From IMG/VR virus record IMGVR_UViG_3300032083_001905, positions 1 through 40,911 of that record: DNA of 40,911 bases. One strand, given 5' to 3'. The notes under the pieces are model-generated. The model ran no database searches. It was not told the origin of the DNA and saw nothing but the letters and a program-made list of their open reading frames with translations. The translations under genes and the position numbers were made by a program. This document shows positions 4,361-28,183 of this stretch, piece by piece. This stretch comes from a virus. Numbering within the stretch: position 1 is the first letter of the stretch; every line of letters starts with the position of its first letter.

Positions 4361-4505
4361 GCTTTTTTTTATTTAATTCATCTACTAATTTTAGAACTTT
4401 ATCTAATTTGTCTTGATAAAATTGTTTTTCTTTTTTTGTTGCATGTGGTGATGTTGATTTTAAACTCCACCACATTAATATTTCATCCATTTTTAATTCA
4501 TTCAT
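4344..4505 (-). CDS. Hypothetical 53-aa protein
   Basis: A 53-codon frame begins at 4505 (MNELKMDEILMWWSLK), overlapping the stop of the sugar dehydrogenase gene by 8 bases; an internal ATG at 4490 would give 48 residues. The second half is a Lys-rich amphipathic helix (KEKQFYQDKLDKVLKLVDELNKKK). The distal end contains the -35 of the next promoter. Function unknown. Confidence 0.5.
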   Translation of the reverse strand: MNELKMDEILMWWSLKSTSPHATKKEKQFYQDKLDKVLKLVDELNKKKLDFNA

Positions 4506-5346
4506 CTGTTACAGCTCTACCTTTTAATTCTTTCCAATCTTGTTCTGGTCTTACCTCTAAATTAGTTTCCCAAGCACCAAATAGTGTTTTTGCAGGTATT
4601 TCCATTTTATAACAAATATCAATCAATGCATTAATATCTTTTGGGAAACAACTTCCACCAAATCCAAGTTTTCCATCAGGACCTGGTACTGCCCAATGTG
4701 ATTTACCTAATCGTTCATCATAAGTAGAATACTCTACAACTTTATCATAATCAATATTTAATTCATCACATATCATTTTCATTTCATTTGCAAATGATAC
4801 TTTGGTTGCTAAGAATGTGTTTGTCATATACTTAACCATCTCAGCAGTTATAGAACCTGTCTTGACTATTTTCACATCAGGAAACACCAATGAATATACT
4901 TGTCTTAACTTTGTTGTTGATGGTCTTTCACCACCAATAATGATTCTATTCTGATTCTTGAAGTCATCAATGAAATTAGCTTCTGTTAAAAACTCAGGAT
5001 TAAATATAACTGATATGTTATGACATTCTTTATTTAATCTATTTGTTGTTCCAGGTGGTATCGTAGATTTGATAGCAACTATTCTACCTGATACATTCCT
5101 ACTCACAACCATGTCGTTTATGTCTTTAACTATAGCCTCAACTATACTTGTATCACAACTACCATCTTTTTTCATCGGTGTTGGAACACACACGAATATG
5201 ATATTTGTTAATTCAACCAAGTCCTCTAAATAATCAACACTACATTTATCTTTATCTAAATCATATGTGTCCACATCATAATGTTTACTAAACACTTCTT
5301 TAACTGCAGTTCCCACATAACCTTGTCCTACTATTCCTATGTTCAT
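4498..5346 (-). CDS. Nucleotide-sugar 6-dehydrogenase (UDP-glucose/GDP-mannose type), short form
   Basis: Enzymes of this family oxidise a UDP- or GDP-hexose twice with NAD to the uronic acid. Residues 7-12 (GQGYVG) form the Rossmann nucleotide loop, VPTP (54-57) and the NPEFL segment (116-120) follow, and GFGGSCFPKD places the catalytic Cys at 233. The protein has 282 residues, whereas family members usually exceed 380: it ends after the central dimerisation helix and lacks the C-terminal UDP-binding domain. The start at 5346 is coupled by ATGA to the epimerase gene. Whether it is active alone is uncertain; a paired acidic-sugar route is likely. Confidence 0.88.
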   Translation of the reverse strand: MNIGIVGQGYVGTAVKEVFSKHYDVDTYDLDKDKCSVDYLEDLVELTNIIFVCVPTPMKKDGSCDTSIVEAIVKDINDMVVSRNVSGRIVAIKSTIPPGTTNRLNKECHNISVIFNPEFLTEANFIDDFKNQNRIIIGGERPSTTKLRQVYSLVFPDVKIVKTGSITAEMVKYMTNTFLATKVSFANEMKMICDELNIDYDKVVEYSTYDERLGKSHWAVPGPDGKLGFGGSCFPKDINALIDICYKMEIPAKTLFGAWETNLEVRPEQDWKELKGRAVTDE

Positions 5347-6218
5347 AATTGTTCCTTTATCCAATCCTCTAAGTTAACCTTTGGTTTCCATTTTAGTTTC
5401 TTTCTAGCTAATTCAGACCTACACAATGTATCTCTTGCCTCACCTGGTATCATATCAATGTAAGTCCAAGCTGGGTCAGGAAACATATCCACTACTTGTT
5501 TTATACTGTAGTTTTTACCCCTACCTAATTCATAAACATTACCCCATTTATTTAATTGAACAACTTTCATCATAGCATCAATTATATCATCAACATGTGT
5601 AAAATCTCTTCTCTGTTTACCATCTCCAGTTATAGTAAATGTTTCATTATTTCTATATTGTTCTAAAAATATAGGTAAGACAGTTCTGTAACTTCCCTCT
5701 GTTGGCATACAATCACCATAAACATTATAGAATCTACATATTGTAATATCTAATCCATATATTTGTTCATAAAGTTTACAAAGTTCTTCACCTTGCCACT
5801 TACTAAATGTGTATGGATTCTTGTGAGTACCACCCCAAAAAGAGCTTGAACCAGCGTAAACTACAGGAATTTTATGTTTCTTAGCATACTCTAAAACATT
5901 CTGTGTTCCACCAACATTAACATCACACACCTCTTTTGGATTATTGAATGACGGACCTATTCTTGGTAATGCAGCTAAATGAAATATTACATCAAATTCT
6001 TTAGTATGAACCCAAGCGTGTTGAATTTTATCAAAGAATGCACCTTCTCTAATCCCATCTCTAATATCTACTTTGAGGTATTCGACACCATCAAGTTCAT
6101 TTTTTCTATCACCTGTGGTATAATTATCAAATGAAACTACTTGATGGCCATCTTTCAATAGTCTTTCACATAAATTAGTTCCTACAAATCCTACACCTCC
6201 AGTTACTAACGCTCGCAT
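5343..6218 (-). CDS. NAD-dependent SDR nucleotide-sugar epimerase/dehydratase
   Basis: This 291-residue extended short-chain dehydrogenase has the NAD loop TGGVGFVG (6-13), FHLAALP, the SSSFWGG active-site strand (124-130) and the catalytic YxxxK as Y136/K140. Late motifs RRDFTHVDDI and GEARDT are typical of UDP-glucose 4-epimerases and UDP-glucuronate decarboxylases. The substrate cannot be fixed by eye. Coupled by ATGA to the dehydrogenase downstream, it could act on the uronic acid that enzyme makes. Length is slightly short but complete. Confidence 0.88.
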   Translation of the reverse strand: MRALVTGGVGFVGTNLCERLLKDGHQVVSFDNYTTGDRKNELDGVEYLKVDIRDGIREGAFFDKIQHAWVHTKEFDVIFHLAALPRIGPSFNNPKEVCDVNVGGTQNVLEYAKKHKIPVVYAGSSSFWGGTHKNPYTFSKWQGEELCKLYEQIYGLDITICRFYNVYGDCMPTEGSYRTVLPIFLEQYRNNETFTITGDGKQRRDFTHVDDIIDAMMKVVQLNKWGNVYELGRGKNYSIKQVVDMFPDPAWTYIDMIPGEARDTLCRSELARKKLKWKPKVNLEDWIKEQL

Positions 6219-7390
6219 TTAATCAATCCTTTCTCATACGTTCTTATTTGTTTTATATATATTTCAAATATATCTAATTCAAACCTACCAACTTCAAGTT
6301 TTTCATCGTTAGCTAGTATTTCTGGTAGTTGTTGAAGCATACTAAAATAATTATTGTTTAAATCACCTAAATCAAATCTAACCTCTATATCGTTTTGAAT
6401 GTTATCATCAATTGAATATATTCTTTTATTCAAATCATATAAAGTGTTTGGTTGTTCTTTATCAATGTAATCTTGAGCATATGTGTCAACATATAATGTA
6501 GAACAAAATGGTTCAAGATGTTGTATCATTTCACCATTACAATTTTTTACAACAAATCCTATATCATATACAGGAACAACAATTGGTTTCATCAAAGAAT
6601 CGTGTTTAACCACAGTTCCCCATTTACGAATAAAGTTTCTCATATTCTTTGTTGTTGTGTGTATCCATTCAGGTGAATCTTTACCAGGAGCACCACCAGC
6701 CATTGGATTGAATCTACTACCACGACTTGTCATATGATATACAAACCCATCCCAAGTCTGAACAAACTTACAACCATTTAGTTGTAGTCTGTTGAATATA
6801 TCCGAATCCTCTTTTGATTGTGGAGCGAATAACTTGTCGTGACCACCAACAGCCCAATAGTCATCTTTGTAAATAGCCCACGGCGCGAATACACCTTCTG
6901 TAGTTTTGTTTTGTTTAAATTTATCTAAATCTTTTAAAAACTTTTGTTCTTCAAACTCTTCAGGTTCAATACCATAGTCAGCCAATATCTTTTCAGGACC
7001 TGGAGGATGTAAAGATGGTTCTATTCTTGTAGCAGTAACCACTACACCTCTTTTAATATGTCTGTTTATCTCCACATCAAGTCCGGGAGTAACATACATA
7101 TCAGCGTGAAGAAACATAACAATATCATTAGATGCTTTTTCACATAAATAATCATACCAATAAACTATACCTTGCCGTTCTGGTCCTTTATTTCTAAATA
7201 TTTTAACATTGTGGTCTGTTTTTTTAATTTCTTGTAACCACTCCCAAGTACCATCACTTGAAAAATCATCAGCCAAAAGTATTTCGTGAACATAACCTAA
7301 ATTCTTTCTGATAGAATTATACATCCATTTTAAATATGTTAAATTATTTCTACTCGGTGATACAAAACTAATTGATTTCATTTCACTCAT
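6206..7390 (-). CDS. GT-A family 2-like glycosyltransferase
   Basis: The 394-residue protein begins with a GT2-type fold: SFVSPSRNNLTYLKWM, then EILLADDFSSDGTWEWL for nucleotide binding, and FLHADMYV as the DxD-like metal site. A middle section (DEDS-like QSKEDSDIFNRL) fits acceptor recognition. The last 130 residues (from about KNCNGEMIQHLEPF) form an extra domain I cannot place. The ATG at 7390 is preferred because GAGGG lies 8 bases upstream and it overlaps the methyltransferase stop. It probably adds a sugar to the glycan built by this cluster. Confidence 0.82.
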   Translation of the reverse strand: MSEMKSISFVSPSRNNLTYLKWMYNSIRKNLGYVHEILLADDFSSDGTWEWLQEIKKTDHNVKIFRNKGPERQGIVYWYDYLCEKASNDIVMFLHADMYVTPGLDVEINRHIKRGVVVTATRIEPSLHPPGPEKILADYGIEPEEFEEQKFLKDLDKFKQNKTTEGVFAPWAIYKDDYWAVGGHDKLFAPQSKEDSDIFNRLQLNGCKFVQTWDGFVYHMTSRGSRFNPMAGGAPGKDSPEWIHTTTKNMRNFIRKWGTVVKHDSLMKPIVVPVYDIGFVVKNCNGEMIQHLEPFCSTLYVDTYAQDYIDKEQPNTLYDLNKRIYSIDDNIQNDIEVRFDLGDLNNNYFSMLQQLPEILANDEKLEVGRFELDIFEIYIKQIRTYEKGLIKCER

Positions 7391-8486
7391 TCCACCATCC
7401 CTCAGATTCAACAGTTACCATTTTCTTATTTACAAAATTAACATAATCTTGGTCAACTCTAATCAAAAATTCAGAATATTTTTGAAGTTCATCCTCACTA
7501 AGACTTATTCCAACACCAAGTTTCTGATGTACTTCTTTCACATCGTATCCCATCATATTATTTCTAACCTCTTGTAAAAGATTAGCCTCTGGACTAATAG
7601 GTTCTAATTCACTTTTAACTTTTTTTCTAATTACAGCTACAGAGTCATAAATTTCTACACTTTGAATTGATAAATCATAATAACTTGGTTTTTCATCTAT
7701 TAATTCTGACTCAGCTCTTTTAGATTGTTGTCCATTTTTTTTGTAATAACAAGAATGTATGTTATCTACAAAAGATTTTATTAATTCAATAAATGAAGTT
7801 TCACCTTTATATTTACCCTCAAATTTAGGCCAATAACAACATTGTATATCTTCTATCACATAAATACCACCATCTTCTAACAATGGCCATAAAGTTTCAA
7901 ATGAAGTTTTTATTTGTGTCATAGTGTGGCCACCATCATCAACCACTATATCTAATTTACCAGCATCTTTGTGAATTTTTTTTAATAATTCAACATCAGT
8001 TTGACTACCCTCATATATTTTAACTCCATTTTTAGCATCACCTGTAGCAAATTGTTGAGTTTTAGGGTCAATATCAAGTCCGTATATTTTAGATTCTGGT
8101 AGATATATTCTCCAACCCCATAAAGCACCAGCCCATCTGTTTCCAATTTCTAAAAAAGAGTATTCTTTATCTCTATCTAAATTTAGTCCATCATAAACAT
8201 CAAAAAAATGTGACATTCTTCTATCTGACAAACTATCAGCACCTAATGTGTTTTCATCATTTAAGGATGCAACTGACAAGAGTTTTCCTATGAGTACAGA
8301 CTCTTTCATATTTTTTGTTTTTTTAGATAAAAACTTTAAATCTTTTTTATCTGGTTTGTAGTCTCTATTAAATTTATAAAATTGACCATCTATGAAAGAT
8401 GTTTTAATACCTTTAAAAAATTTCTCAAACTTTTTAGTGTCTTTTTTAGGGTCTAACCCAGTTTCGTTAGTATTTTTTGTTTCCAT
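7383..8486 (-). CDS. Class I SAM-dependent methyltransferase of sugar cluster
   Basis: In this 367-residue protein the core lies at about 110-230: SFLEIGNRWAGALWGW is motif I (SAM loop), IYGLDID motif II, KLDIVVDDGGHTM motif IV and GGIYVIEDIQ motif V. This resembles the macrocin/cephamycin-type O-methyltransferases found in polysaccharide and antibiotic clusters. The first 90 residues are Lys-rich. It starts 34 bases inside the preceding GT gene, with AGAGGAG 14 bases upstream. A sugar O-methylation role is likely; the phage's own MetK could supply SAM. Confidence 0.8.
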   Translation of the reverse strand: METKNTNETGLDPKKDTKKFEKFFKGIKTSFIDGQFYKFNRDYKPDKKDLKFLSKKTKNMKESVLIGKLLSVASLNDENTLGADSLSDRRMSHFFDVYDGLNLDRDKEYSFLEIGNRWAGALWGWRIYLPESKIYGLDIDPKTQQFATGDAKNGVKIYEGSQTDVELLKKIHKDAGKLDIVVDDGGHTMTQIKTSFETLWPLLEDGGIYVIEDIQCCYWPKFEGKYKGETSFIELIKSFVDNIHSCYYKKNGQQSKRAESELIDEKPSYYDLSIQSVEIYDSVAVIRKKVKSELEPISPEANLLQEVRNNMMGYDVKEVHQKLGVGISLSEDELQKYSEFLIRVDQDYVNFVNKKMVTVESEGWWNE

Positions 8487-9388
8487 ATTTTTAAAAAATT
8501 CTCCTCTGAATAGTTTTTTGAATATAAATCTTTTGTTTCATTTGAACAATGATTATAAAAATCTTTATCTTTTAATTTATTGGCTAGTTCTTTAGCCGTT
8601 TTAATATCTCCCTCCTCCATGCTCAGAGATGGATGTAGAACCTTTTGAGTGTTCACATTATCATAACCAATACAAGGTATTCCAAGATAACTACAATTTA
8701 AATTAAAAGAACCTGCTGATGGTGTTCCTAATTGAACAGCGTATTTATGTTTTGAAAGTTCATACATAAAATCAGTCCAAGTAACCCAATCTAAATGTTT
8801 TATATCAAGTTCTCTCTCTTGGTCTTTCATTCTTCCTGTTGTTGGTGCCCAAACATCGTCTGATATTTCTCTAGCAACCATATAAGAATCTATACCTCTA
8901 TAAATACTCACGAAGTTACCACCAATCATAACCGATTCATTTTTTTTATCACTTGTTTTTACATTGTCACCAATCATAACTGTTGGTAGTAATTCACAAG
9001 GTTTATTAGTTAAGCCTCTATAATACTTTAAGTCCACATCATTGTGACATAAAATTAAATCAAACTCTAAAATTGTGTTGAAATACCAAATCTGTTCTTC
9101 TATTTCATTATCTTGCCAATACCAATATGTACTCTCCTGCATTATAGCTATTTTTTTACACACTCTTCTTAAATTCTTTATGAATGGATAATTAATTAAA
9201 TAGTTTTTAGTTTTTGGTATAATCACAACACCAACATCATAAGAATCTGCTGATAAGGTATGTAAAGAATTAATTGGATGATGTGTAGCATCTAAACTAC
9301 ATATCCAAGATACATCACTCCTCATATTTGGATTACTTCTTGGTATTTTACCTTGATAATTACCCTCTGTAAAAAATCCTATGTTCAT
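8453..9388 (-). CDS. Putative GT-B type glycosyltransferase
   Basis: The 311-residue protein starts MNIGFFTEGNYQGKIP and shows alternating strands and helices as in GT-B enzymes: DVGVVIIPK, KKIAIMQEST, FDLILCHNDVD in the first half, and VMIGGN, YAVQLGTPSAGSFNLNCSYLGIPCIGY in the second, which resembles the donor-binding region (Gly-rich loop followed by a small-residue helix). A clear EX7E motif is absent, so the assignment is tentative. It is coupled by ATGA to the dehydratase gene upstream. Confidence 0.55.
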   Translation of the reverse strand: MNIGFFTEGNYQGKIPRSNPNMRSDVSWICSLDATHHPINSLHTLSADSYDVGVVIIPKTKNYLINYPFIKNLRRVCKKIAIMQESTYWYWQDNEIEEQIWYFNTILEFDLILCHNDVDLKYYRGLTNKPCELLPTVMIGDNVKTSDKKNESVMIGGNFVSIYRGIDSYMVAREISDDVWAPTTGRMKDQERELDIKHLDWVTWTDFMYELSKHKYAVQLGTPSAGSFNLNCSYLGIPCIGYDNVNTQKVLHPSLSMEEGDIKTAKELANKLKDKDFYNHCSNETKDLYSKNYSEENFLKIWKQKILTKLG

Positions 9389-10296
9389 TCGTTTATTAAC
9401 TCCAACATTTCTTCATCACTCATTTTGTCTGCAGATTCGGAAGAGTATTCAATATTTAATTTATTTTTACCATCATTTAATTGTTTTTTTAATATTATTA
9501 AATTATCTTTAATATATGTATATGGTAATTCTCTTTCACTCATTAGTTTTTCATTTAATCTTTCACCTGGCCTCAAGCCAACAACTTCAACATCACTTGA
9601 TATTGTTTTAGCTAAATCATACATATTCACAGACTTCATAAATGTAGAAGCTGTAAAACCTCCACCATTTTTTTCACAATAATTTATGGTATCGTGTATC
9701 AAGTTTACTGCAGATTTTTTTGAGAACATTAATCTATTCATATTTTTATCTGTTAGTTTTAAAGATTCACCTTTTTCTTTTTGACCTAACCAAAATGGTA
9801 TTACAGAACCATTCGTGTTAGCTACATTTGCGAATCTACAAACAGCAAATTTGTTTCGTGATGTGTTAGCTTCGTGAAAACAATGTTCCATAAGTGATTT
9901 ACTATAACCATATACGTTTTCAGGAAAACAAGCTTTATCTGTACTGATTCCTATTGTTATAGGGACATTTGCTCTAACACTAGCAGATATAACATTTAAA
10001 CTACCCAATACATTTACTTTACATGCGTTAATTGGATTTTCTTCAGCTAAATTTACATGCTTCATCGCAGCCATATGAATCACAACATCAGGTTTTACTT
10101 TTGAAAATATTGTGGTTAAATTATCTTGACTTTCAATATCAGAAAAATATATATTTACTTTTGGAAATTTTCTTTTTAACTCAGCCTGCAATAATTCATT
10201 TCTTGATATTGAACTGAACTTATAATCATTATAAAATTCATCAATAAATGCTGAACCTATTGTGCCTGAACCACCCACTACTAGTATTTTTTTCAT
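9385..10296 (-). CDS. NDP-sugar 4,6-dehydratase, FlaA1/PseB/CapD-like
   Basis: Enzymes of this family dehydrate UDP-GlcNAc (often with C5 inversion) in the first step to deoxyamino sugars. The NAD loop is VVGGSGTIGS (6-15), IHMAAMKHV is the typical second motif, and the signature STDKACFPENVYGYSK spans 118-133 with the Asp-Lys catalytic pair 120/121. VVGLRPGERLNEKL near the C-terminus is also diagnostic. Full soluble length, no membrane domain. Together with the DegT aminotransferase, acyltransferase and CMP-sugar synthetase it suggests an amino-sugar or nonulosonic acid branch. Confidence 0.9.
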   Translation of the reverse strand: MKKILVVGGSGTIGSAFIDEFYNDYKFSSISRNELLQAELKRKFPKVNIYFSDIESQDNLTTIFSKVKPDVVIHMAAMKHVNLAEENPINACKVNVLGSLNVISASVRANVPITIGISTDKACFPENVYGYSKSLMEHCFHEANTSRNKFAVCRFANVANTNGSVIPFWLGQKEKGESLKLTDKNMNRLMFSKKSAVNLIHDTINYCEKNGGGFTASTFMKSVNMYDLAKTISSDVEVVGLRPGERLNEKLMSERELPYTYIKDNLIILKKQLNDGKNKLNIEYSSESADKMSDEEMLELINE

Positions 10297-10298
10297 CT

Positions 10299-10943
10299 CT
10301 AACCCCTAAATATTTCTATTATTCTAAATTGTTCAACAAACTCTTTTCCTCGTTTTTTACATTGAAAATTACTATGAAACGAGTCTAATGTTGGCTTTTG
10401 AAAATATAATTTATCATTTTGTGATTTAAACTCTTTCAAAGATTCTAATTTTCTATCATAAAAATTTGTAACATCAACAAACATATTTGGAATCCAAGTA
10501 TTTAATGTGCTAACAGTTTTATATTCAATCAATGATATGGTATTTTTTCTAACAAGAGCATCACCAAATTTATTTACAAAACGATGTTCATACATTGAAT
10601 CTTTACTTGGTGGAATAAGAATACAATCATATTCGTGCACATTTAAAAATGTTTTTTCAATATAATTAATCCATTCAGGTTCACTTTTATCCTCTATGTA
10701 TTCACTATCAGAAAACCATAAAAGTTTAATATTTTTACATCGAGCTTTACTCCAAACATCATGCACTTCTTTTCTTCTATCTTGTTCGTTGGTGACATCA
10801 AATCCTTTAGCACCACCACGACTTAAACAAAAAATATCAAATTTAGTATTTGATTTTTTTGCTATTGTTCCTAACATACTATACTCCACATCATCTGGAT
10901 GCGGAGATAGACATAACACTCTTTTAAAATTTAAAAATTTCAT
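10299..10943 (-). CDS. PIG-L/LmbE-family deacetylase
   Basis: Members of this zinc-dependent family remove N-acetyl groups from GlcNAc derivatives. The opening LCLSPHPDDVEYSMLG carries the HPDD motif at 15-18 with metal ligands His15 and Asp18; the second-site H of the family may be at YEHRFVN. The start is the ATG at 10943: AGGAG precedes it by 8 bases and it overlaps the upstream stop as ATGA; a GTG at 10952 is less likely. Placed between the dehydratase and acyltransferase, it could free an amine that is then re-acylated. Confidence 0.88.
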   Translation of the reverse strand: MKFLNFKRVLCLSPHPDDVEYSMLGTIAKKSNTKFDIFCLSRGGAKGFDVTNEQDRRKEVHDVWSKARCKNIKLLWFSDSEYIEDKSEPEWINYIEKTFLNVHEYDCILIPPSKDSMYEHRFVNKFGDALVRKNTISLIEYKTVSTLNTWIPNMFVDVTNFYDRKLESLKEFKSQNDKLYFQKPTLDSFHSNFQCKKRGKEFVEQFRIIEIFRG

Positions 10944-11815
10944 TTCGTCCACTCCTGCTTTATTGATTTAAATGGTTTGTTTGTGTAAAATTTTATTCCT
11001 CTTCTCCTTAAATAATCTCTTAAATCCTCAACAACATCATTACCTTTACCATTTATAATTTTTCTTTTTTTTAGGTCAAAGGTAGTAGTACAACTCATTC
11101 CTTCAGAAAACTCAGTCAAAAGTATTTTTCCGTTTTTATATTCTGTTGTATGATACCAATAAACTTTTTTTTCATCAAGTAGTTTTTTCCAATCTTTTAA
11201 AATATCATTTATTAATTTTTCCATCTCGTTTTCATTTAATTCTTTTGGATAATAATTCTCTTTGATTACTTTACAAGGTGAACCAGCTGCTAAACAACCA
11301 CTTGGTATATTCCTATTGATTGTAGAACCAATACCTATAACTGAATCATCTCCTATTGTAACATTAGGTAAAACAATACATCTTGCTGGTAACCACACAT
11401 TGTTACCTATCTTAACAGGACCAAAATCTGATGGGAAACCTTGTGTAATATCTAACCAAGCTCCATGTGTCCAAATCATAACTTCAGCACCAATTCCAAC
11501 ATCATCACCAATCTCAACTGATTCTGATGGATTTATAATAGTTCTTTCAAAGATACCAACATGCTTTCCTATCTTTACATTTGAATTAGTACCATTAGAA
11601 CCACCCCTACCTATCTCAACACCATCAGCCATATAAAGAAATTCACCAACTTCAAAGTTTCTACACGAAATCTTAACATCATTACCAATTTTTGATAACT
11701 TATCTATTTTAATAGAGTTACAATGAATTTGAACATTGTCTCCAATCACAACAGAATCATCAATGTCAATGTTGTTTGCTATAATTTTACTATTTTTTCC
11801 TATTTTGTAAGTCAT
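10940..11815 (-). CDS. Left-handed beta-helix acyltransferase
   Basis: Residues 1-190 are built from hexapeptide repeats (IGKNSKIIAN, VVIGDNVQI, VKIGKHVGI, VEIGDDVGIGAEVMI, VKIGNNVWLPARCIVLPNVTIGDDSVIG), the mark of trimeric acetyl-/acyl-CoA transferases. WTHGAW contains the likely catalytic His. The region ends with AAGSPCKVI, typical of sugar O-/N-acetyltransferases. Residues 200-291 form an additional basic domain unlike the family core. It is joined by TAATG to the aminotransferase upstream, so N-acylation of the aminated sugar is a natural guess. Confidence 0.88.
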   Translation of the reverse strand: MTYKIGKNSKIIANNIDIDDSVVIGDNVQIHCNSIKIDKLSKIGNDVKISCRNFEVGEFLYMADGVEIGRGGSNGTNSNVKIGKHVGIFERTIINPSESVEIGDDVGIGAEVMIWTHGAWLDITQGFPSDFGPVKIGNNVWLPARCIVLPNVTIGDDSVIGIGSTINRNIPSGCLAAGSPCKVIKENYYPKELNENEMEKLINDILKDWKKLLDEKKVYWYHTTEYKNGKILLTEFSEGMSCTTTFDLKKRKIINGKGNDVVEDLRDYLRRRGIKFYTNKPFKSIKQEWTK

Positions 11816-12939: not shown

Positions 12940-12953
12940 TATAACCTCTCTCC

Positions 12954-15198: not shown

Positions 15199-15210
15199 TT
15201 AAATTTTCCC

Positions 15211-16946: not shown

Positions 16947-16953
16947 AAATTTC

Positions 16954-19219: not shown

Positions 19220-19968
19220 TTGTAGTTCTCCCCAATTACATCCCAAGTCTGCTTCATCAAGTTAATCCTATCGGGTATTCCAAAACCAGTAAAGTGTAAT
19301 ATGTATCCGTATTTTATAAAAAACGGCGTATCATCTTCGTTTAGTTGCCAATTGTGAGTAAACATTTGTTTTTTGTGTAAACCCATTAGATTCCAAGATG
19401 GTTCTAAAAATTTTCTTTTGTAATTAGATTCTTTAAGATGGAAGTTCAACAAAGTTTGCTCTTTCCCACCACCTAAAGTCCAATTATCAAGTTCGTGTTG
19501 ATTTTCAAAATAAAAATTTAATAGTTTTTCAAAGAATGGTAAATGTTGATTAGAAAAAAACAATACTCCAGCATTAATATATTCATCAATATCAATCTTC
19601 GTATTTGGAAAAAACTTGCTGTAAGCATTTAAACTATCTGTCAACCATCTTAAATTAATATCATCTATAACTCCACAAAATTCATCATCATACATATCAA
19701 ATATATTTGGAGCATTCCAATGTATCATTGTATCTGAATCAACGACTCCTATTTTTTCATAATCTTTGGCTCTTTCATATATAAGTTCTTTGTTCCACAC
19801 TGGTTTACCTAATCTATTATCATGCTCCGTGATTAACATAAAGTCAACATTGTTTTTTTTACACCAATACTCCCAAGTGTTAATTGAATATCCACTATAC
19901 TCTGTATTTTTATAAGTTGATGTATTGTGGTTTATAGCAACCATGTAAATTAAATTTTTATTAGACAT
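19216..19968 (-). CDS. GT8-like glycosyltransferase, copy B
   Basis: The 250-residue paralogue of the gene downstream carries GVVDSDTMIHWNAPNIFD (DxD), YINAGVLFF and KEQTLLNFH, and ends with ILHFTGFGIPDR, matching the position of WIYHYNAI in copy A. Its start lies 8 bases inside the preceding gene. The two copies have diverged strongly, so they probably use different donors or acceptors in successive steps. Confidence 0.8.
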   Translation of the reverse strand: MSNKNLIYMVAINHNTSTYKNTEYSGYSINTWEYWCKKNNVDFMLITEHDNRLGKPVWNKELIYERAKDYEKIGVVDSDTMIHWNAPNIFDMYDDEFCGVIDDINLRWLTDSLNAYSKFFPNTKIDIDEYINAGVLFFSNQHLPFFEKLLNFYFENQHELDNWTLGGGKEQTLLNFHLKESNYKRKFLEPSWNLMGLHKKQMFTHNWQLNEDDTPFFIKYGYILHFTGFGIPDRINLMKQTWDVIGENYK

Positions 19969-20911: not shown

Positions 20912-20916
20912 AATAT

Positions 20917-20945
20917 AATTTACAACCTTTTTTTTAATTTTCCAA
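20917..20945 (-). promoter_or_regulatory. AAAGCTTG promoter abutting start codon
   Basis: On the minus strand AAAAGCTTGGAA, with -35 TTGGAA at 20945-20940, is followed after 17 bases by TAAATT (20922-20917). Only five bases separate the -10 from the ATG at 20911, so transcription should begin at or next to the start codon. The promoter at 33565-33593 has the same layout, including AAAAAAAGGTTG before the -10. It would add internal expression within the glycan cluster. Confidence 0.6.
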
Positions 20946-22517
20946 GCTTTTATTTAATAAATTTTTACCTAAATAAAATAATAAATGACAATATGGATAG
21001 TGATGAAATTTGGCTATATTTAAAAATATTAAAGCTGTCATAATCTTAACCTTTTTTACATCATAACCCCATTTATTTATGTATTCTACAAATATATCTT
21101 CACAATCAATGTTTATATTTTTTCTTAAAAAATCATATTTGATTTCATTCATAGACCTATCAAAACTATATAAATCATCATTTATAATATCGTGAGATAT
21201 AATTAATCCATGCATTAATTTAGCTAAATCATAATAAACATCACCATAATCTAATTTACCACAGAAATCTTGTCTCCAATCCAAAAGAGTAATTGGTAAA
21301 GTATTGTGACTGTTACCTTCAGATACTAATATGTTTTCAAAATGTAAGTCTCCGTGAAATCTAACAGGTATTCCATCTGCAATATAATTCCAATCCACTC
21401 TGTCTAATAAAGATTTTACTGAAGGAACTTTTGTACCATTTATAACTTCTTTATCACTATCTGAATTACCGAATCTTTTAAAATAATCATCAACTCTTTG
21501 ATATGTTTTATCTTTATAAAATCCTAAACAACTCTGTTTAAATTCTTTTTTATTTACCTTAATAGGTTCGTGAAACGATTTAAGAGAATCCAATAGAAAT
21601 TTAAAGTTTTCCGTTGTTACTGCTTCTGAAAATATTGTTCCATTAACTTTTTTATATGAGTACATATTTTCTGTAACATCTATTACTGTTGGAACATATG
21701 GTTTTAATGATTCAGACCTTATAGCTCTATTTTTAATAAAATCAGTATCTATACAAAACTTCAAAACTTTATCTTCTACGAACCAAATAGCTTCATTTGG
21801 TTTTTCTAAAATGTTTGGTTCATCATCTTGTTTTAGTTTTTCTTTAGCTTTCAACAAAATATCTCTATTACCTGTATCATACCATTCAAACTTAATAGAA
21901 TCAAATCTTATATTTTTTTCCATCATTTTTTGAATAGCATAACTCTCACCAGTTAATATAGCTTTCTCATCAATCAAACTCCAAAACTCTTCGTAGTCTT
22001 TAATACCACATACACCAATGTAAGCTGGACTACTTGGTGATTCATTTTTTTCATATAGTTTATCAGCTATACCATTTTCACCTACACTTAAAGACCTATA
22101 ATCCACTCCACCATTTACATCAGAATAACCAATCCAATTATTGAAACTCATTTTCTGTAATGATGGTAACTCATCAGTTATAATAGTATCATTAGATATA
22201 AAAATAAATTCACTCTGTAAATACTTTCTACACTTATTTAATGTATAACCAAGACCTGAACCCTCACCTTCGTAAATATCTATATCCACAAAAGTAAAGT
22301 TTCTATTAGGATACGCTAGTGTTAAGAACTGACGAATGTAATTACCTTTATAACCTAAAGCTACAACTATTTCTATATCTTCGTCAAACTTTTCAACTAT
22401 ATGAGATATAACAGGCTTGTTCCCTACCGACAACAAAGCCTTATTCACATTATCCGTGAACTCTCCAAGTCGTGCTCCTACACCAGCACAAGGTAAAAAT
22501 ACTTTATAATTAGTCAT
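20934..22517 (-). CDS. Nucleotidyltransferase-aminoglycoside/choline-kinase-like fusion
   Basis: The 527-residue bifunctional protein has an N-terminal sugar/choline-phosphate nucleotidyltransferase (1-225; LPCAGVGARLGEFTDNVNKA at 8-27 is the NTP loop, SND at 108-110 the metal site). The C-terminal part (about 240-527) is an APH/choline-kinase-like phosphotransferase: RFHGDLHFEN gives catalytic Asp390 and Asn395, and LLDW gives Asp413. Such a fusion could phosphorylate a compound and then activate it as an NDP derivative, as LicA and LicC do for choline. The start at 22517 has AAGGA upstream and overlaps the cupin gene. Confidence 0.85.
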   Translation of the reverse strand: MTNYKVFLPCAGVGARLGEFTDNVNKALLSVGNKPVISHIVEKFDEDIEIVVALGYKGNYIRQFLTLAYPNRNFTFVDIDIYEGEGSGLGYTLNKCRKYLQSEFIFISNDTIITDELPSLQKMSFNNWIGYSDVNGGVDYRSLSVGENGIADKLYEKNESPSSPAYIGVCGIKDYEEFWSLIDEKAILTGESYAIQKMMEKNIRFDSIKFEWYDTGNRDILLKAKEKLKQDDEPNILEKPNEAIWFVEDKVLKFCIDTDFIKNRAIRSESLKPYVPTVIDVTENMYSYKKVNGTIFSEAVTTENFKFLLDSLKSFHEPIKVNKKEFKQSCLGFYKDKTYQRVDDYFKRFGNSDSDKEVINGTKVPSVKSLLDRVDWNYIADGIPVRFHGDLHFENILVSEGNSHNTLPITLLDWRQDFCGKLDYGDVYYDLAKLMHGLIISHDIINDDLYSFDRSMNEIKYDFLRKNINIDCEDIFVEYINKWGYDVKKVKIMTALIFLNIAKFHHYPYCHLLFYLGKNLLNKSLEN

Positions 22518-22869
22518 TAGTTCCTTCTCTACCATAATCATCTTCTAATCTGACAATATCATCTTCACCAAAATATGTTCCAGTCTGAACCTCAATAAAT
22601 TTTAAATCTTCATCTTGTCTATTTTCAACTCTATGTGCAGTTCCAACAGGAACTATTATCACCTCACCAACCTTATATGTTGTTTCCACATCATCTAATG
22701 TTGCAACAGCTTCACCTTGAACCACAACCCAAGCCTCACTTCTCTTGTGGTGATATTGATAACTTGGTCTTCCACCTTTTTTAATCACTATCTCTTTTAC
22801 TTTACAATACTCTGTATCTAATAAGTTCTCAAATGTTCCCCACGGCCTTTCTTCTTTATAATTTGACAT
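22510..22869 (-). CDS. Stand-alone type II mannose-6-phosphate isomerase cupin
   Basis: All 119 residues match the C-terminal cupin of ManC/AlgA-type bifunctional enzymes: RPWGTFENLLD, YQYHHKRSEAWVVVQGEA (metal ligands His40/His41 and Glu45), VGEVIIVPVGTAHRVEN (His79) and IEVQTGTYFGEDDIVRLEDDYGR. The usual attached mannose-1-phosphate guanylyltransferase domain is missing; the nucleotidyltransferase encoded just downstream may replace it. A role in isomerising a phosphosugar is probable. Confidence 0.9.
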   Translation of the reverse strand: MSNYKEERPWGTFENLLDTEYCKVKEIVIKKGGRPSYQYHHKRSEAWVVVQGEAVATLDDVETTYKVGEVIIVPVGTAHRVENRQDEDLKFIEVQTGTYFGEDDIVRLEDDYGREGTND

Positions 22870-23212
22870 CTTCTATCCCCTCGTTTCTATATAAGTTAAT
22901 TGAATAAGCTGTATCTCTTTCACTATTAGGTTTTCTATCATTAACCACTATTCTGTCTCCACCACCTACTCCCATAATCAATTGGTCATAGAATATATCA
23001 TACATTGATAATTGTTGCTCAGTTTTATTTCTTAAACTTTCTCTTCTACCAGTTATCAAAATGATGTTATACCCTTTAGCATCCCATTCGTTTATTTTTT
23101 CTATTGTTCCATTTAATGGTGATGCATTTAATTGACTTGATAATCCTTGATTACGATGTTCTAATAAAACACCATCTATGTCACATATTATTGTCTTTGG
23201 TTTATTGTTCAT
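22856..23212 (-). CDS. HAD-family phosphatase, small
   Basis: In 118 residues, IICDIDGVLLEH gives the HAD motif I (nucleophile Asp11, Asp13), ILITGRRES motif II, and VVNDRKP a weak motif IV region. The tiny size and lack of a cap suggest a macromolecule or sugar-phosphate phosphatase, similar to small HADs in capsule clusters. It starts after AGGG and overlaps the next gene upstream by 11 bases. It is one of two HAD proteins in this stretch. Confidence 0.75.
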   Translation of the reverse strand: MNNKPKTIICDIDGVLLEHRNQGLSSQLNASPLNGTIEKINEWDAKGYNIILITGRRESLRNKTEQQLSMYDIFYDQLIMGVGGGDRIVVNDRKPNSERDTAYSINLYRNEGIEDVKL

Positions 23213-24029
23213 TTAAATCCCTATACATTAAATGTCTATCACGATATTTAAATTTGTGTATTATATTATAATTTAAATGTTTTGTTAAATAATTACAAAC
23301 CATAAAATGACTAGATATACCAGCATACTGACGAATACTCATCTCAGATTTTGGATTACAAAAATCATTTAGTAAATCATATAATTTAGAAAACTCATCC
23401 ATTTTATGAGAATCTGAAACAAACCATCTATCTGGTAACTCTACTATTGAATGTGAATAAAGAAATCCCATTGCAATTTCTGAAATTTTCTGACGATTAG
23501 AATCTGAAGGTATTGGTGTTGATGTATAAAAGTATTCAGAATTAAATTCTTTTTCAAAGATTATCTTATCCAACCAACATAAATCTAACCTTGACTGCAT
23601 CACTAAATCATACTTGAAGTTATTTTCTTCTTCATATTGTTTTTTTAACTCATTTGATTTCTTAAAACTATACCACCGACTATAATGAGCCTGGCCTCTT
23701 TGTTCATCATACCCACCACCCATAGAATGTGTTCCAACATAATCTGGTATTGAAAACTTTCTCTGATTTTCAACAAGATACTTTTTTGGTTTATATAATT
23801 CAACCATTTTATCTTTTAGGTTAACATCCCAAGTATGAAAAAATATATCCACATCATTATGTTTTATAATATTTTCATAAAGATATTTATGAGATGTTTC
23901 TAAAACTCTGATTGAACTATTATTTTCACCTTTTTCAAAATCAGTAGAATGATAGTTTTTACCTGTAGATTCTCCACCATGTATTCCGTGAAAACATAAT
24001 GCTATCCTCTTACGACTTTTTGTATTCAT
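23202..24029 (-). CDS. Putative glycosyltransferase-like cluster protein (DFxHTW type)
   Basis: This 275-residue protein starts MNTKSRKRIALCFHGIHGG. The block DVDIFFHTWDV and the pair SRWYSFKKSNELKK with FKYDLVMQSRLDL are shared, from memory, by uncharacterised proteins in marine bacterial and phage polysaccharide clusters, thought to be glycosyltransferases. SRLDL may hold the DxD-like site. The ATG at 24029 is chosen over a TTG at 24044, with GGAGGG directly before it. Function remains inferred. Confidence 0.55.
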   Translation of the reverse strand: MNTKSRKRIALCFHGIHGGESTGKNYHSTDFEKGENNSSIRVLETSHKYLYENIIKHNDVDIFFHTWDVNLKDKMVELYKPKKYLVENQRKFSIPDYVGTHSMGGGYDEQRGQAHYSRWYSFKKSNELKKQYEEENNFKYDLVMQSRLDLCWLDKIIFEKEFNSEYFYTSTPIPSDSNRQKISEIAMGFLYSHSIVELPDRWFVSDSHKMDEFSKLYDLLNDFCNPKSEMSIRQYAGISSHFMVCNYLTKHLNYNIIHKFKYRDRHLMYRDLNEQ

Positions 24030-24690
24030 GACCCTCCAATCCAAAATTTAAAAATGGATTCAATGAATAGATATTACATTTATACTTTTTCATTAAAAAT
24101 GCTCTTATTGATTGAGTTTGAATCTCTATAGCGCTCATAAAATCATTTATACCACCCCAATTTCCAGCTGAAACCCAATCTTTTTCCATATAACCCTCGT
24201 AATACAAATTACCATCCAAAGTCCCACAATCGTGACCCGATAAGATTATATTTTTTGCTCCCATATAAGCTGCTATGTGTATAAGACTTGTGACACTTGA
24301 CCTACTCACTATAATTTCATCATCACCTAAATTATTTAATTCAGTTTCAAAATCTTGAGACCTAGCATTGTGATTAAACATATAAGCATTACTATGTTCT
24401 GGTAGATTTTTTCTTTTTTCATGATAACCCATAAAGTGTTCAGCAAAAATCAATGGTGTTCCTATAGAATTTAATTTTCTAATACTTCTTGGAAATCTTG
24501 GTTCTTCTAAACAATCTTTCATAACAACATAGTCACAAGGATAATGTTTATAAACATGATTTTGACCAATAACAATTTTGTTTTTAAAAAAATCATCACT
24601 AATATAATCCATTGATGAACCAGCTAATATAAGCCATATATCCTCACCTTTATATTTATTTTTTAACTCTTTTAAATTTTTATATTCCAT
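24010..24690 (-). CDS. DUF115/Maf-like putative glycosyltransferase
   Basis: In this 226-residue protein IWLILAGSSMDYI is a Gly/Ser loop, FKNKIVIGQNHVYKHYPCDYVVMKD and RSSVTSLIHIAAYMGAKNIILSGHDCG follow. This layout (loop, V-x-x-N, substrate GxD near the end) resembles the DUF115 family (flagellin sialyl-type transferases, MptE-like). Since a CMP-sugar synthetase is the next gene upstream, it is a candidate to use that activated sugar. AGGAG precedes the ATG. Confidence 0.5.
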   Translation of the reverse strand: MEYKNLKELKNKYKGEDIWLILAGSSMDYISDDFFKNKIVIGQNHVYKHYPCDYVVMKDCLEEPRFPRSIRKLNSIGTPLIFAEHFMGYHEKRKNLPEHSNAYMFNHNARSQDFETELNNLGDDEIIVSRSSVTSLIHIAAYMGAKNIILSGHDCGTLDGNLYYEGYMEKDWVSAGNWGGINDFMSAIEIQTQSIRAFLMKKYKCNIYSLNPFLNFGLEGHEYKKS

Positions 24691-24692
24691 AT

Positions 24693-25358
24693 TTAACTCC
24701 TATATTTTTTATAAAGAAATTCAGCAAATTCAAAGTCTATTGGATTATCAATATCAACAGCTTCAAAATCATCAAGTTTGTAAAACAAAGGTTTTTTTCC
24801 AACAATATTTCTATATTTAATCATATTCTCCTTTGATATTATTGATATTCCATATGTTAAACTAACTATGTCTGGTAAATCTTGTGTGTTAGGTGAATCT
24901 GATGGTTTGTAATTCATTGGTTTTTCATCTAACCATAAGTGTTGTTTAACATCAGTCACCGTAGTTAAACTATCATATCTATCTTTTGCATTTCTAAATC
25001 TATTAATGAAATCATAATAGGTATCTACTTTAATCAATGGTGCTGTACAAGGACTATAAATAATATAATCTGTATCTGTATTCTCTGCTATGTTCTGAAA
25101 AAACTCACTATTATTACATTTTGAACTAGCATAGTAATCTTCTCTCACACATTTACTGACACCATATTCATCTGCTATATTTAAAGCTATTTCTGAATCT
25201 GTATTAACCACTATCTCATCTATTACATCAACTTGTTTCAATACATCAAGTTTAACTTTTAACAAATTACTATCAGCGAAAGGTTTAAAATTTTTATTCT
25301 TAACTCTTTGAGAACCCTTACGAACAGGCACAACTACAGTAATTTTTTCTCTACTCAT
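24693..25358 (-). CDS. CMP-sialic/nonulosonic acid synthetase (NeuA-like)
   Basis: NeuA-type enzymes join CTP and a keto-acid sugar to give the CMP-sugar donor. VPVRKGSQRVKNKNFKPF (10-27) is the nucleotide loop with RxGS-like and K-N-K residues; DEIVVNTDSEIAL, YIIYSPCTAPLI and DFEAVDIDNPIDFEFA near the C-terminus are further family blocks. At 221 residues it is a normal single-domain form. GAGGAG lies upstream. It strongly implies that the cluster makes an acidic nine- or eight-carbon sugar. Confidence 0.88.
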   Translation of the reverse strand: MSREKITVVVPVRKGSQRVKNKNFKPFADSNLLKVKLDVLKQVDVIDEIVVNTDSEIALNIADEYGVSKCVREDYYASSKCNNSEFFQNIAENTDTDYIIYSPCTAPLIKVDTYYDFINRFRNAKDRYDSLTTVTDVKQHLWLDEKPMNYKPSDSPNTQDLPDIVSLTYGISIISKENMIKYRNIVGKKPLFYKLDDFEAVDIDNPIDFEFAEFLYKKYRS

Positions 25359-25719
25359 CTAACAACTCCTCTAAAAATTTTATTGTTCTTTTTCTCGATT
25401 TTAAACTTTTAAACTCTAAAGCTTTATCATCAATATAATAATCAGCAACAATCTTTGGACTCGGACCTGACTTCTTATCAAAGAATGGATTAACATTAAT
25501 ATCATCAAACTCTAACTTGTGGTCTGTACACCATTCTATAGCTTCTTGTAATGCAGGTTCACCTCTACTTGTCCATAGTATAAGTTTATGTCCTTGTTCT
25601 TTCAACTTAATCAATACATTTAACAATTCTTTCTGTTCATCTGATTGTAATCCAATATCAGGAAAACTATATTCAGTCAAACAACCATCAAAATCTATAG
25701 CGAATGTTAACTTACTCAT
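25351..25719 (-). CDS. HAD-family phosphatase
   Basis: In 122 residues, AIDFDGCLTEY provides the motif I Asp9/Asp11 and KLILWTSRGEPALQEAIEW motif II; PSPKIVADYYIDDKALEF gives the Lys and acidic motif III/IV residues. Similar small HADs are common in phages and in capsule clusters. Next to the CMP-sugar synthetase it could remove the 9-phosphate of a nonulosonic acid phosphate, as KdsC-like enzymes do. GGGAG precedes the ATG. Confidence 0.78.
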   Translation of the reverse strand: MSKLTFAIDFDGCLTEYSFPDIGLQSDEQKELLNVLIKLKEQGHKLILWTSRGEPALQEAIEWCTDHKLEFDDINVNPFFDKKSGPSPKIVADYYIDDKALEFKSLKSRKRTIKFLEELLDE

Positions 25720-26809
25720 ATATCTCCCCTACATTCGCTTCTACTAATGTTTTAGCTATCTGATATGCCTCTTTTATATTTTTCATATCTGTATAAAATC
25801 CTTTATCATCGTAATCATAATTCTCTTTTATATTTTTATATATTAGATTTCTAGCAAATGTTCCAATTGATACTCCTTGAAAGTTAACATTAGATTGTTT
25901 AGCTAATTTAGATGTTAATGAATTAGTTCCACCTGACATCAATATATTTACTTTTCTTTTCTTTAGATAATATAATTCATTAGTTCTTTTATTTAACTTC
26001 ATATTAAATGCCTTGTTAACAACATCTGCAGTAGAGACAGCTTGTAGTGTCGTGTTATAGTTATCCTCACCACCTGACATAGGATAACCATCAGCTTGAA
26101 TAATTAATCTATCTCCCATTATTTCTTTTGCTTGTTTTATTCTGTGTTCTAACCCAAAGTTACCTAAGTGTAATCTATCTAAACACATAGAGTTATGTCC
26201 ATTTGGATTTGATTTATTTACTATATCCCATTCTTTCATAATATATTCATCTTCAGCTATAGCTGCATGTAACTCAATGTTTTCAGCTCCAAGTTCTATA
26301 CATTTAGGTAGAACTTCTTCTAAACCTTTTTCGTTATGAGTATAAGATATAATATCATCTCTTGGACAAATAGCACTACAATCTCCACAACCAATACATT
26401 TTTCTTCTATTACATAAGCCACTTCTTTACCTATTTCAATAGGTTCTATGGCTTCCGTTGGACAAACTGGCGCTACACATAATCCACATTTAATACAAGT
26501 GTTAGGGTCAATAAATGCTTTTCTTACATGATGGTCACCTGGCATTCCAACACTAACCATTATGTATGGTCTTGTTTGTAAATTAATACCCAGTGAGTCT
26601 GATATGTCAAATGCTCTATCTATACCTTCAACACAGGACTCAACAACTTCTGGCGTAGCAGATATATCTAAACCCTTAGCACCAGCTAAAGTATAAATCA
26701 TTGTTAATCTTTTTACTTCTTCTAAATTTTCATTACCTGCACCACAAATCATCTTAAAATATTTTTGATTATCAAATAATCTTTGTAATGTTTCAAATCT
26801 TTCATTCAC
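25712..26809 (-). CDS. LdpA-like 4Fe-4S protein
   Basis: This 365-residue protein has three regions. Residues 15-100 (YFKMICGAGNENLEEV, IYTLAGAKGLDISATPEVV) match the N-terminus of cyanobacterial LdpA as I recall it. Two 4Fe-4S motifs follow: C105-C108-C111-C116 and C138-C141-C144-C148. The C-terminal region has IIQADGYPMSGG, ILMSGGTNSLTSKLA and GVSIGTFARNLI, matching LdpA blocks. LdpA was described as a redox sensor of the circadian input pathway; here the context is sugar synthesis. The GTG start at 26809 is coupled to the upstream stop as GTGA. Chemistry unknown. Confidence 0.75.
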   Translation of the reverse strand: MNERFETLQRLFDNQKYFKMICGAGNENLEEVKRLTMIYTLAGAKGLDISATPEVVESCVEGIDRAFDISDSLGINLQTRPYIMVSVGMPGDHHVRKAFIDPNTCIKCGLCVAPVCPTEAIEPIEIGKEVAYVIEEKCIGCGDCSAICPRDDIISYTHNEKGLEEVLPKCIELGAENIELHAAIAEDEYIMKEWDIVNKSNPNGHNSMCLDRLHLGNFGLEHRIKQAKEIMGDRLIIQADGYPMSGGEDNYNTTLQAVSTADVVNKAFNMKLNKRTNELYYLKKRKVNILMSGGTNSLTSKLAKQSNVNFQGVSIGTFARNLIYKNIKENYDYDDKGFYTDMKNIKEAYQIAKTLVEANVGEIYE

Positions 26810-27576
26810 GATATTCTATCCAATATTGTCTTAGACCTTTTTATATATTCACCACCTATTTTGTTGTAATAATTAGCTTTATAATTTAACCAACTTGATT
26901 CAAAGGATAAAGAGTTTTTTATTAACTCTTCTAAATTATCCATATTCACTTTGTTCAAATCTATAATTACATTTCTTGTCTCTATATTGTTTAGTAATTT
27001 TTTACTGAACATATCTTGAATAAAGTTAATACTAGAACTACCAATATTTCCACCCATCAAAGTTTTGAACCCGTAGTTTTTAGATTGTGTCAATATATCA
27101 GTAACAACTTTACACATTTTATTTGATACAACATCTTGTTTTCCATATCCAAATGACTTGGTTAAATCAGACCTACCAATAACAATACCAGTCAACAACT
27201 TAGAGGATGGTGAACTTAATATCTTATCTAAATTTTCATACGCAGTTTTACTTTCAACATTAATATAAAATTTCATTTTTTCTCTTTTATCAATATCAAT
27301 ATTTGTAATAACAGCTTCAACAAATTTTTGTAATGCAAACTCAGATTCTATCATTGGAGCAACAATACCATTTACATCTAATGATAAACAATTATTTATA
27401 TCACTAATAGCTTCACAACCACCTATTTTTACACTTATGTAAGCACTCACAGAATCACATATTCTTTTCATCTTAACAACATCATCAAAAATAACACCCT
27501 CATCTTCAAATGATTGTTTTATACCAACAACACCATCATTCATTAATTTTTCTAATATGTTTTTAAATTGTATCAT
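26806..27576 (-). CDS. HpcH/HpaI aldolase/citrate-lyase-like TIM-barrel protein
   Basis: The 256-residue protein shows ISVKIGGCEAISDI, LSLDVNGIVAPMIESEFALQKF, FYINVESKTAYENLDKIL and LTGIVIGRSDLTKSFGYG, the order seen in pyruvate/PEP-dependent class II aldolases. These normally use a divalent metal and join or split a keto acid and an aldehyde. The metal Asp/Glu pair is probably E in NVESK and D in GRSD. It is coupled to the LdpA-like gene, so the two likely act together, possibly forming the carbon skeleton of the acid activated by the CMP-sugar synthetase. Confidence 0.7.
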   Translation of the reverse strand: MIQFKNILEKLMNDGVVGIKQSFEDEGVIFDDVVKMKRICDSVSAYISVKIGGCEAISDINNCLSLDVNGIVAPMIESEFALQKFVEAVITNIDIDKREKMKFYINVESKTAYENLDKILSSPSSKLLTGIVIGRSDLTKSFGYGKQDVVSNKMCKVVTDILTQSKNYGFKTLMGGNIGSSSINFIQDMFSKKLLNNIETRNVIIDLNKVNMDNLEELIKNSLSFESSWLNYKANYYNKIGGEYIKRSKTILDRIS

Positions 27577-28183
27577 AAAATAAATTTTGTTTCACTTGTC
27601 TATCAATTGTTTTAGGATGATAGAATGAAAATTGTTCTTCTGCTGGTAAATAAGTATGTTCTTTATATCCTGTTAATACTTCGTGTACTTTGTTTTTCCA
27701 AAGTATATTTGGACGATTCCTCCAAATTCTACCTTGATAATCAGGAAAGTTTACCCAACCTTTTTCGTTCACTTGCCAACCCCATTTATTAATATGCTCT
27801 TGTGTAATACCATCAACTTTATTTACTCTCGGCACCCAATATAAATCTATTGTTGGGTTTGAAGCGAATATTGGTTTGAGGTTCTTCATTAATGATTTGT
27901 GTGGAATCTCATCAGCATCTATATTTACAATATAGTCATTTTTGCACATACGAGTCAAGTAGTTTTTTTGTCCAGCATAATCTTTTAACAAATGTCGTTG
28001 TTCAAAAGTCATCTCGTGCATTGATGTCATTACATCTAATATCTCTATTGTCTTTTTATTGTCTGAATAATCATCAAGAATTACTATCTCATCTTCTTCG
28101 TCTTTGTGTTTGACTAAAAACTCTAATAATTTTTGTAGTGATGTGTCTTCATTGTGAGTCAATACACTATAACTAATTTTCAT
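27563..28183 (-). CDS. Family 2 glycosyltransferase
   Basis: In 206 residues, ISYSVLTHNEDTSLQKLL opens the GT-A fold, DEIVILDDYSDNKKT binds the nucleotide, and DYIVNIDADEIPHKSLM contains the DxDE metal motif. The middle part (YWVPRVNKVDGI, GRIWRNRPNILWKNKVHEVLTG) is typical of the WaaE/KdtX subfamily, which adds glucose to lipopolysaccharide core. AAAGG precedes the ATG. It opens the glycan cluster in transcription order. Confidence 0.88.
   Translation of the reverse strand: MKISYSVLTHNEDTSLQKLLEFLVKHKDEEDEIVILDDYSDNKKTIEILDVMTSMHEMTFEQRHLLKDYAGQKNYLTRMCKNDYIVNIDADEIPHKSLMKNLKPIFASNPTIDLYWVPRVNKVDGITQEHINKWGWQVNEKGWVNFPDYQGRIWRNRPNILWKNKVHEVLTGYKEHTYLPAEEQFSFYHPKTIDRQVKQNLFYDTI

Follow-up and report, generated by a model that had tools for sequence, protein, structure and literature searches.

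What is a T4-like phage doing with some 24 kb of sugar-making and sugar-decorating genes? The question is raised by the IMG/VR virus record IMGVR_UViG_3300032083_001905, a linear record of 40,911 bases, analysed here over its whole length (the window), in which every recognised gene lies on the minus strand. An unbroken run of 27 minus-strand open reading frames (ORFs) at 4498-28183 forms a glycan island. The role of such lipopolysaccharide (LPS)-like clusters in T4-like phages has been debated for years, with host-surface change, exclusion of rivals and stuffer DNA as proposals. Comparison with relatives reveals a cassette-exchange locus for glycan genes in an uncultured lineage of T4-like phages, with the island as one of its alleles. 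What the locus is for is less certain; our preferred reading, at a probability of about one half, is that virion proteins are glycosylated in the cytoplasm and that a change of cassette alters the type of glycan.

The replacement is directly visible in the closest relative, a 51 kb contig (G005). The flanks of the island are about 80% identical between G005 and the window, with most genes on both sides at about 70-90% protein identity, and a different glycan cluster of 22 kb lies in G005 between the same two border genes, a GT2 glycosyltransferase gene (27563-28183) and a gene resembling uridine diphosphate (UDP)-sugar dehydrogenase (UGD-like, 4498-5364). G005 lacks any homologue of 17 of the 25 window genes between these borders, and identity is above 50% for only two. 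Unbroken nucleotide homology stops at 27564, the end of the border GT2 gene, and resumes in the GT2/UGD genes opposite, with a few short matches inside the swapped interval. The kept borders are thus the small GT2 gene on the replication side and the UGD-like gene with a GT2 gene on the other; since the former is part of the conserved phage flank, the swapped segment extends over about 6.2-27.56 kb. Two further contigs (G016, G017) retain most of the border genes and differ in island content, and the Microcystis phage isolate Mel-JY01, with a complete 190 kb genome, carries a smaller glycosyltransferase cluster in the same place, after the genes for the clamp loader, S-adenosylmethionine (SAM) synthetase and PD-(D/E)XK nuclease. 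Some genes travel as a group: those for the cupin, nucleotidyltransferase-kinase, KbaZ-like protein, HAD phosphatase and the family at 23202 recur together in G017 and G014, and cupin and kinase enzyme are a single fused protein in G017. Megablast of the whole island against isolate phages gave no match.

The first-pass annotation of the window had described a polysaccharide island of about 24 kb with some 25 tightly overlapping genes, as AT-rich as the replication core. This description holds, with the gene number corrected to 27: neighbouring ORFs overlap at 20 of 26 junctions, the widest gap is 22 nucleotides, and the GC content of 27-33% is like that of the flanks, with no step at the left or right edge. 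Domain searches also recover the sulfation, methylation, radical SAM and cytidine monophosphate (CMP)-sugar enzymes it had listed. Of the two doubts it had raised, a phage/host chimera is rejected, since independent contigs also have both flanks with a glycan cluster in that position, the arrangement being repeated in G005, G016 and G017 and, in reduced form, in Mel-JY01. As to the other, inactivating mutations, the island genes are intact and under purifying selection, with pooled differences of 0.29/0.19/0.46 at codon positions 1/2/3 between each gene and its nearest relative, and catalytic motifs are readable in the translations (CPFSCTFC of radical SAM, HPDD of PIG-L, HGDLHFEN of the kinase, GGSCFPKD of the dehydrogenase and DFDG of HAD). 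As a separate observation, a contig in the metagenome-assembled genome Flavobacteriales NAT55 (NZWA01000089.1, L181) has the phage core gene order and the full island start, and is therefore a phage contig of this lineage inside a bacterial bin.

A feature that bears on function is the lack of membrane-embedded assembly parts. By hydropathy (19-residue window, threshold 1.8), membrane proteins number 0 among the 27 island genes, 0 among 122 ORFs in the relatives' islands and 0 among 15 in the cluster of cyanophage P-SSM2, and the same test flags six proteins in the O-antigen and colanic acid clusters of E. coli (WbbH, RfbX, WzxC, WcaJ, WcaD and Wzc). Polytopic ORFs are likewise missing from 73 IMG/VR loci around the aldolase described below (0/941), as against 18/394 in cellular loci around LdpA homologues (Fisher p = 2e-10, an optimistic value as the viral loci are partly related). 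The MATE-type flippase family PF13440 and the initiating transferase family PF02397 gave no match in the whole records of 11 relatives, where positive controls were found, and PF02397 gave none in the window. The island holds no flippase, polymerase or ABC exporter; the searches by name did not include Wzy or the flippase family PF01943, but the hydropathy test would be expected to flag such proteins inside the clusters. Without membrane-embedded parts, the clusters cannot by themselves make an exported polysaccharide. The "near-complete pathway" of the first-pass annotation, if a surface polysaccharide was meant, therefore fails on export, there being no initiating transferase, flippase, polymerase or ABC exporter. 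Of the two targets it had offered, the host surface is weakened by the missing export genes and the virion would be favoured.

The genes of the island, followed by two features beyond its right border, are as follows.

4498-5364 (-): UGD-like, left border gene (PF03721, PF00984; 83% in G005)
5343-6218 (-): NAD-dependent sugar epimerase/dehydratase (PF01370, E 8e-47)
6206-7411 (-): GT2 glycosyltransferase, retained in relatives (PF00535; 63% in G005)
7383-8486 (-): class I SAM methyltransferase (PF13578, Methyltransf_24, over cut-off)
8453-9388 (-): GT-B-like by inspection, in most relatives' islands (no Pfam/PDB support)
9385-10296 (-): short Polysacc_synt_2, nucleotide-sugar dehydratase/epimerase (PF02719, E 2e-58)
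10299-10952 (-): PIG-L sugar N-deacetylase (PF02585)
10940-11815 (-): hexapeptide acyltransferase (PF00132, NCBIfam)
11815-12939 (-): DegT sugar aminotransferase (PF01041, E 1.5e-82; nearest NCBIfam PseC, below cut-off)
12954-15017 (-): B12-binding radical SAM, KedN5-like C-methyltransferase family (PF04055; NF033712 below cut-off; 68% in G016)
14995-15198 (-): small protein of 67 amino acids (no domain above cut-off)
15211-16011 (-): GT-A-like by inspection (no Pfam; 47% in G005)
15990-16946 (-): glycosyltransferase-like by inspection, family A12 (no Pfam/PDB support)
16954-18477 (-): sulfotransferase (residues 1-210, PF03567) with a C-terminal GH43-propeller-like part (weak, E 0.05)
18461-19246 (-): GT-A-like, VDADT motif, family A10 (no Pfam/PDB support)
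19216-19968 (-): paralogue of 18461-19246 (31% identity)
19961-20911 (-): KbaZ/GatZ-like TIM barrel, D-tagatose-bisphosphate aldolase non-catalytic subunit family (69% in G017)
20934-22541 (-): sugar-1-phosphate nucleotidylyltransferase fused to an APH-type kinase (PF00483 and PF01636, both just below cut-off)
22510-22869 (-): mannose-6-phosphate isomerase-type cupin (PF01050, E 1.6e-28; fused to the kinase enzyme in G017)
22856-23212 (-): HAD phosphatase (PF25109, PF03767 over cut-off)
23202-24044 (-): unassigned family A2, travelling with the kinase/cupin/HAD/KbaZ module
24010-24690 (-): MptE-like, candidate CMP-sugar transferase, distant to the Maf flagellin glycosyltransferase domain
24693-25358 (-): CMP-acid-sugar cytidylyltransferase (PF02348, CTP_transf_3, 55.9 bits, cut-off 22.6; PseF 61 bits, below cut-off)
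25351-25719 (-): small HAD phosphatase, family A9 (phrog_1238; DFDG motif)
25712-26809 (-): LdpA-like TIM barrel with two [4Fe-4S] sites (PF12617, Fer4)
26806-27576 (-): HpcH/HpaI-type aldolase, SFEDEG-motif subfamily (PF03328; best PDB profile match YfaU 2-keto-3-deoxy sugar aldolase)
27563-28183 (-): GT2, right border gene (PF00535; 84% in G005)
29280-32038 (-): pair of GT-B glycosyltransferases, lineage-conserved (phrog_2170, PF00534)
33953-34903 (-): SAM synthetase (PF00438, PF02772, PF02773)

The UGD-like protein has the NAD and central domains only, without the usual C-terminal UDP-binding domain; its versions in relatives are equally short (260-290 amino acids), so that local truncation does not explain its shortness. 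For 20934-22541, the NCBIfam and PDB profiles are consistent with a nucleotidylyltransferase. The KbaZ/GatZ-like protein is 28% identical to annotated plasmid-borne homologues, and its PDB matches are weak. About eight island ORFs have no family above the Pfam cut-off, and several of these look like glycosyltransferases, as in the family of 18461 and 19216 with its VDADT motif. Sulfotransferase fusions (16954-18477; L107:5963-7267) combine the enzyme with the weak propeller-like part in the window and with a methyltransferase in G014.

The five genes at 24010-27576, for an aldolase, an LdpA-like protein, a HAD phosphatase, a cytidine triphosphate (CTP) transferase and an MptE-like protein, may form a module for a CMP-activated acid sugar. 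Known pathways to 3-deoxy-D-manno-octulosonate (Kdo), pseudaminic acid and sialic acid also combine a CMP-acid-sugar cytidylyltransferase with a HAD phosphatase; they differ in that an HpcH/HpaI-type aldolase and an Fe-S TIM barrel stand here in place of a NeuB/PseI/KdsA-type synthase, no such family being found among the Pfam matches of the island. By its gene content, the branch is not the standard Kdo or sialic acid pathway. The combination of aldolase and CMP-acid-sugar transferase suggests CMP-3-deoxy-ulosonate, and we predict that the module makes this compound by an uncharacterised route; the open-access literature gave no description of an LdpA/aldolase route. The aldolase family occurs in 73 IMG/VR contigs, in 12 of which the LdpA-like gene follows directly, with the HAD gene next in 11 of the 12. 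Three loci (L108, L109, L111) have the whole module in the gene order of the window. In two others (L110, L112) the LdpA-like gene and its HAD are missing, so that the LdpA-like protein is not strictly required. A single-protein search of IMG/VR with the LdpA-like protein gave no match; the aldolase alignment then recovered the 12 loci that hold its gene. Neither the LdpA-like nor the CTP-transferase protein had a match among isolate phages.

The LdpA-like family has the eight invariant cysteines of two [4Fe-4S] sites, and aldolase-type TIM barrels are the sole fold matches of its predicted model, in which the ferredoxin insert is of low confidence. Against the circadian LdpA equivalog NF045992 it scores 157 bits (cut-off 450) and is a distant homologue only. 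Its homologues in cellular genomes include those of Pelagibacteraceae, Prochlorococcus, Thioglobus and Chloroflexi. A Pelagibacteraceae locus (L189) has the aldolase, LdpA, HAD and CTP-transferase genes in the same order as the phages, and in several bacteria the LdpA gene shares an operon with genes for an HMGL aldolase-MptE fusion, an HpcH/HpaI aldolase, a HAD protein and a KdsB-like cytidylyltransferase. Among Prochlorococcus single-cell genomes (L195-L202, L205), several combine a pair of aldolase-family genes with one or two neighbouring LdpA-like genes.

If the glycan is built on virion proteins, it would be an acidic oligosaccharide (sulfated, methylated, deacetylated or aminated) whose nucleoside diphosphate (NDP)- and CMP-sugar precursors come from the cassette. 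CMP-3-deoxy-ulosonate would be the product of the aldolase, LdpA-like, HAD and CTP-transferase genes; a second NDP-sugar would come from those for the kinase-nucleotidyltransferase, cupin, HAD and KbaZ-like proteins. Soluble glycosyltransferases would assemble the chain in the cytoplasm directly on a phage protein (capsid, fibre or tail), so that a swap of cassettes would give the virion another glycan type. Chloroviruses and mimiviruses decorate their own particles with soluble glycosyltransferases and virus-encoded nucleotide sugars (PMC4691112), and glycosylated virions have been described for mycobacteriophages (Freeman et al. 2023, as cited in PMC12619734). Several results count against virion glycosylation as we propose it. 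No result here points to an acceptor protein for the glycan. The MptE-like protein reaches 27.8 bits against PF01973 (cut-off 34.6), and its model (predicted local distance difference test score 73) has no significant fold match in PDB. Pfam and PDB profile searches of the glycosyltransferase-like ORF families gave no family support, so that their label stays putative. As for expression timing, the T4 late-promoter octamer occurs at chance frequency (11 observed, 11.7 expected), and scans for sigma-70 promoters and terminators also stayed at chance level. Finally, the host could use its own flippases and polymerases to export a unit made by phage enzymes, so that the host surface stays a possible target despite the missing genes.

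Host-surface remodelling is accordingly the strongest competitor, possible but distinctly less probable than decoration of the virion. Phage enzymes would add sugars to the host LPS core or to lipid-linked O-chain intermediates at the cytoplasmic face, host flippases, polymerases and Lpt would complete export, and rival phages would be excluded. Such a change has been proposed in print for clusters of cyanophages and pelagiphages (PMC7824862, PMC7029224), and the presence of the aldolase-LdpA-HAD-CTP transferase module in cellular genomes (Pelagibacteraceae) makes host-like sugars plausible. Unlike the E. coli and cellular loci, however, the viral clusters examined encode no initiating transferase, flippase or polymerase.

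Transfer of the sugars to modified bases of the phage DNA, blocking nucleases, is unlikely. A Mom-family gene and the two conserved GT-B genes adjoin the island, and DNA hypermodification by virus-encoded glycosyltransferases has been published (Pyle et al. 2024, as cited in PMC12619734). Yet a gene of the thymidylate synthase/deoxycytidine monophosphate hydroxymethylase family is absent from the complete Mel-JY01 genome and from seven of eight IMG/VR relatives, most of them fragments; G007 has it. The size and variability of the cluster, its sulfation and its ulosonate module are, on general grounds, far beyond known DNA glycosylation systems. A small-molecule pathway or mere filler for headful packaging is very improbable: the KedN5-like radical SAM enzyme is related to natural-product enzymes, a metabolite was suggested for a second cyanophage cluster (PMC7824862) and stuffer DNA has been raised (PMC3037559), but the many glycosyltransferase-like genes, with no scaffold-forming enzyme or exporter among the domain matches, argue against a metabolite, and constraint and co-travelling modules against filler.

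The right flank at 28.2-40.9 kb also encodes a PD-(D/E)XK nuclease, a RimK-like ligase, a Mom-family protein, GroES and a T4-type clamp loader and clamp. The SAM synthetase could supply the methyltransferase and radical SAM enzymes; it belongs to phrog_1569, listed in PHROGs as of unknown function, and also adjoins the clamp loader in Mel-JY01. The Mom-family DNA-modification gene lies at 35806-36564 and has two matching places in G017 (12-296, 2087-2695). On its left side, the island is flanked by small phage genes and a tRNA-Ala. Just beyond the left border, 3743-4198 (-) encodes a small protein with a lipoprotein-like N-terminus (ITIGC) that is conserved at only 44% in G005, as against about 80% for its neighbours. 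Further out, 2584-3087 and 1265-1699 (both -) are, by inspection and without Pfam support, zinc-finger/HNH-like and homing-endonuclease-like small genes, the former retained in distant relatives at 33-38%; genes of this kind near the border could aid cassette mobility.

LPS-like clusters in T4-like phages, and their polymorphism, are already published. The cyanomyovirus clusters of P-SSM2 and S-SSM7 (PMC3037559, PMC7824862) share with the island a T4-like phage background, co-directional epimerase, glycosyltransferase and methyltransferase genes, polymorphism between relatives and freedom from membrane proteins. The P-SSM2 cluster adjoins hli genes, whereas the island lies between gp44/gp45-type replication genes and small genes, and adds a sulfotransferase, a B12 radical SAM enzyme, PIG-L and the CMP-sugar and LdpA-like module. 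The host recognition cluster of pelagimyophages (PMC7029224) is also hypervariable, with glycosyltransferases and radical SAM cassettes that vary between relatives, but is bordered by VrlC and gp14, in a structural region with tail fibres, and its divergence is described as gradual rather than as whole replacement; here, the flanks are replication-type and small genes, with no tail fibre gene among the matches. Chloroviruses and mimiviruses resemble the island in their virus-encoded nucleotide-sugar enzymes and soluble glycosyltransferases, yet have eukaryotic hosts and a glycan demonstrated on capsid or fibrils, where that of the island is a prediction. Conserved border genes with exchangeable glycan content are also a feature of bacterial O-antigen and capsule loci, from which the island differs by lacking Wzx, Wzy, an initiating transferase and an ABC exporter. 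New are therefore the location, the clean cassette replacement, the sulfation, B12-radical-SAM and ulosonate content and the demonstrated membrane-free character; the newest part is the conserved aldolase/LdpA-like/HAD/CMP-transferase/MptE-like module, largely common to SAR11.

For the debate on these clusters, the fact that none of the viral clusters examined encodes membrane-embedded assembly parts is a concrete argument for cytoplasmic glycosylation, that is, of the virion, and the question is testable because an isolate with the same locus, Mel-JY01, exists. Tentatively, the whole may be a phage serotype-like locus, in which swappable cassettes place rare acidic, sulfated sugars on virion proteins by way of an uncharacterised CMP-3-deoxy-ulosonate route, with the aldolase and the LdpA-family Fe-S TIM barrel, at work in SAR11 too. 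Should exchangeable sugar coats prove to be present on virions, ideas on the adsorption, stability and detection of phages in aquatic systems would need rethinking. The conserved aldolase/LdpA-like/HAD/CMP-transferase module, for its part, suggests that some of the most abundant marine bacteria have an acid-sugar pathway so far uncharacterised.

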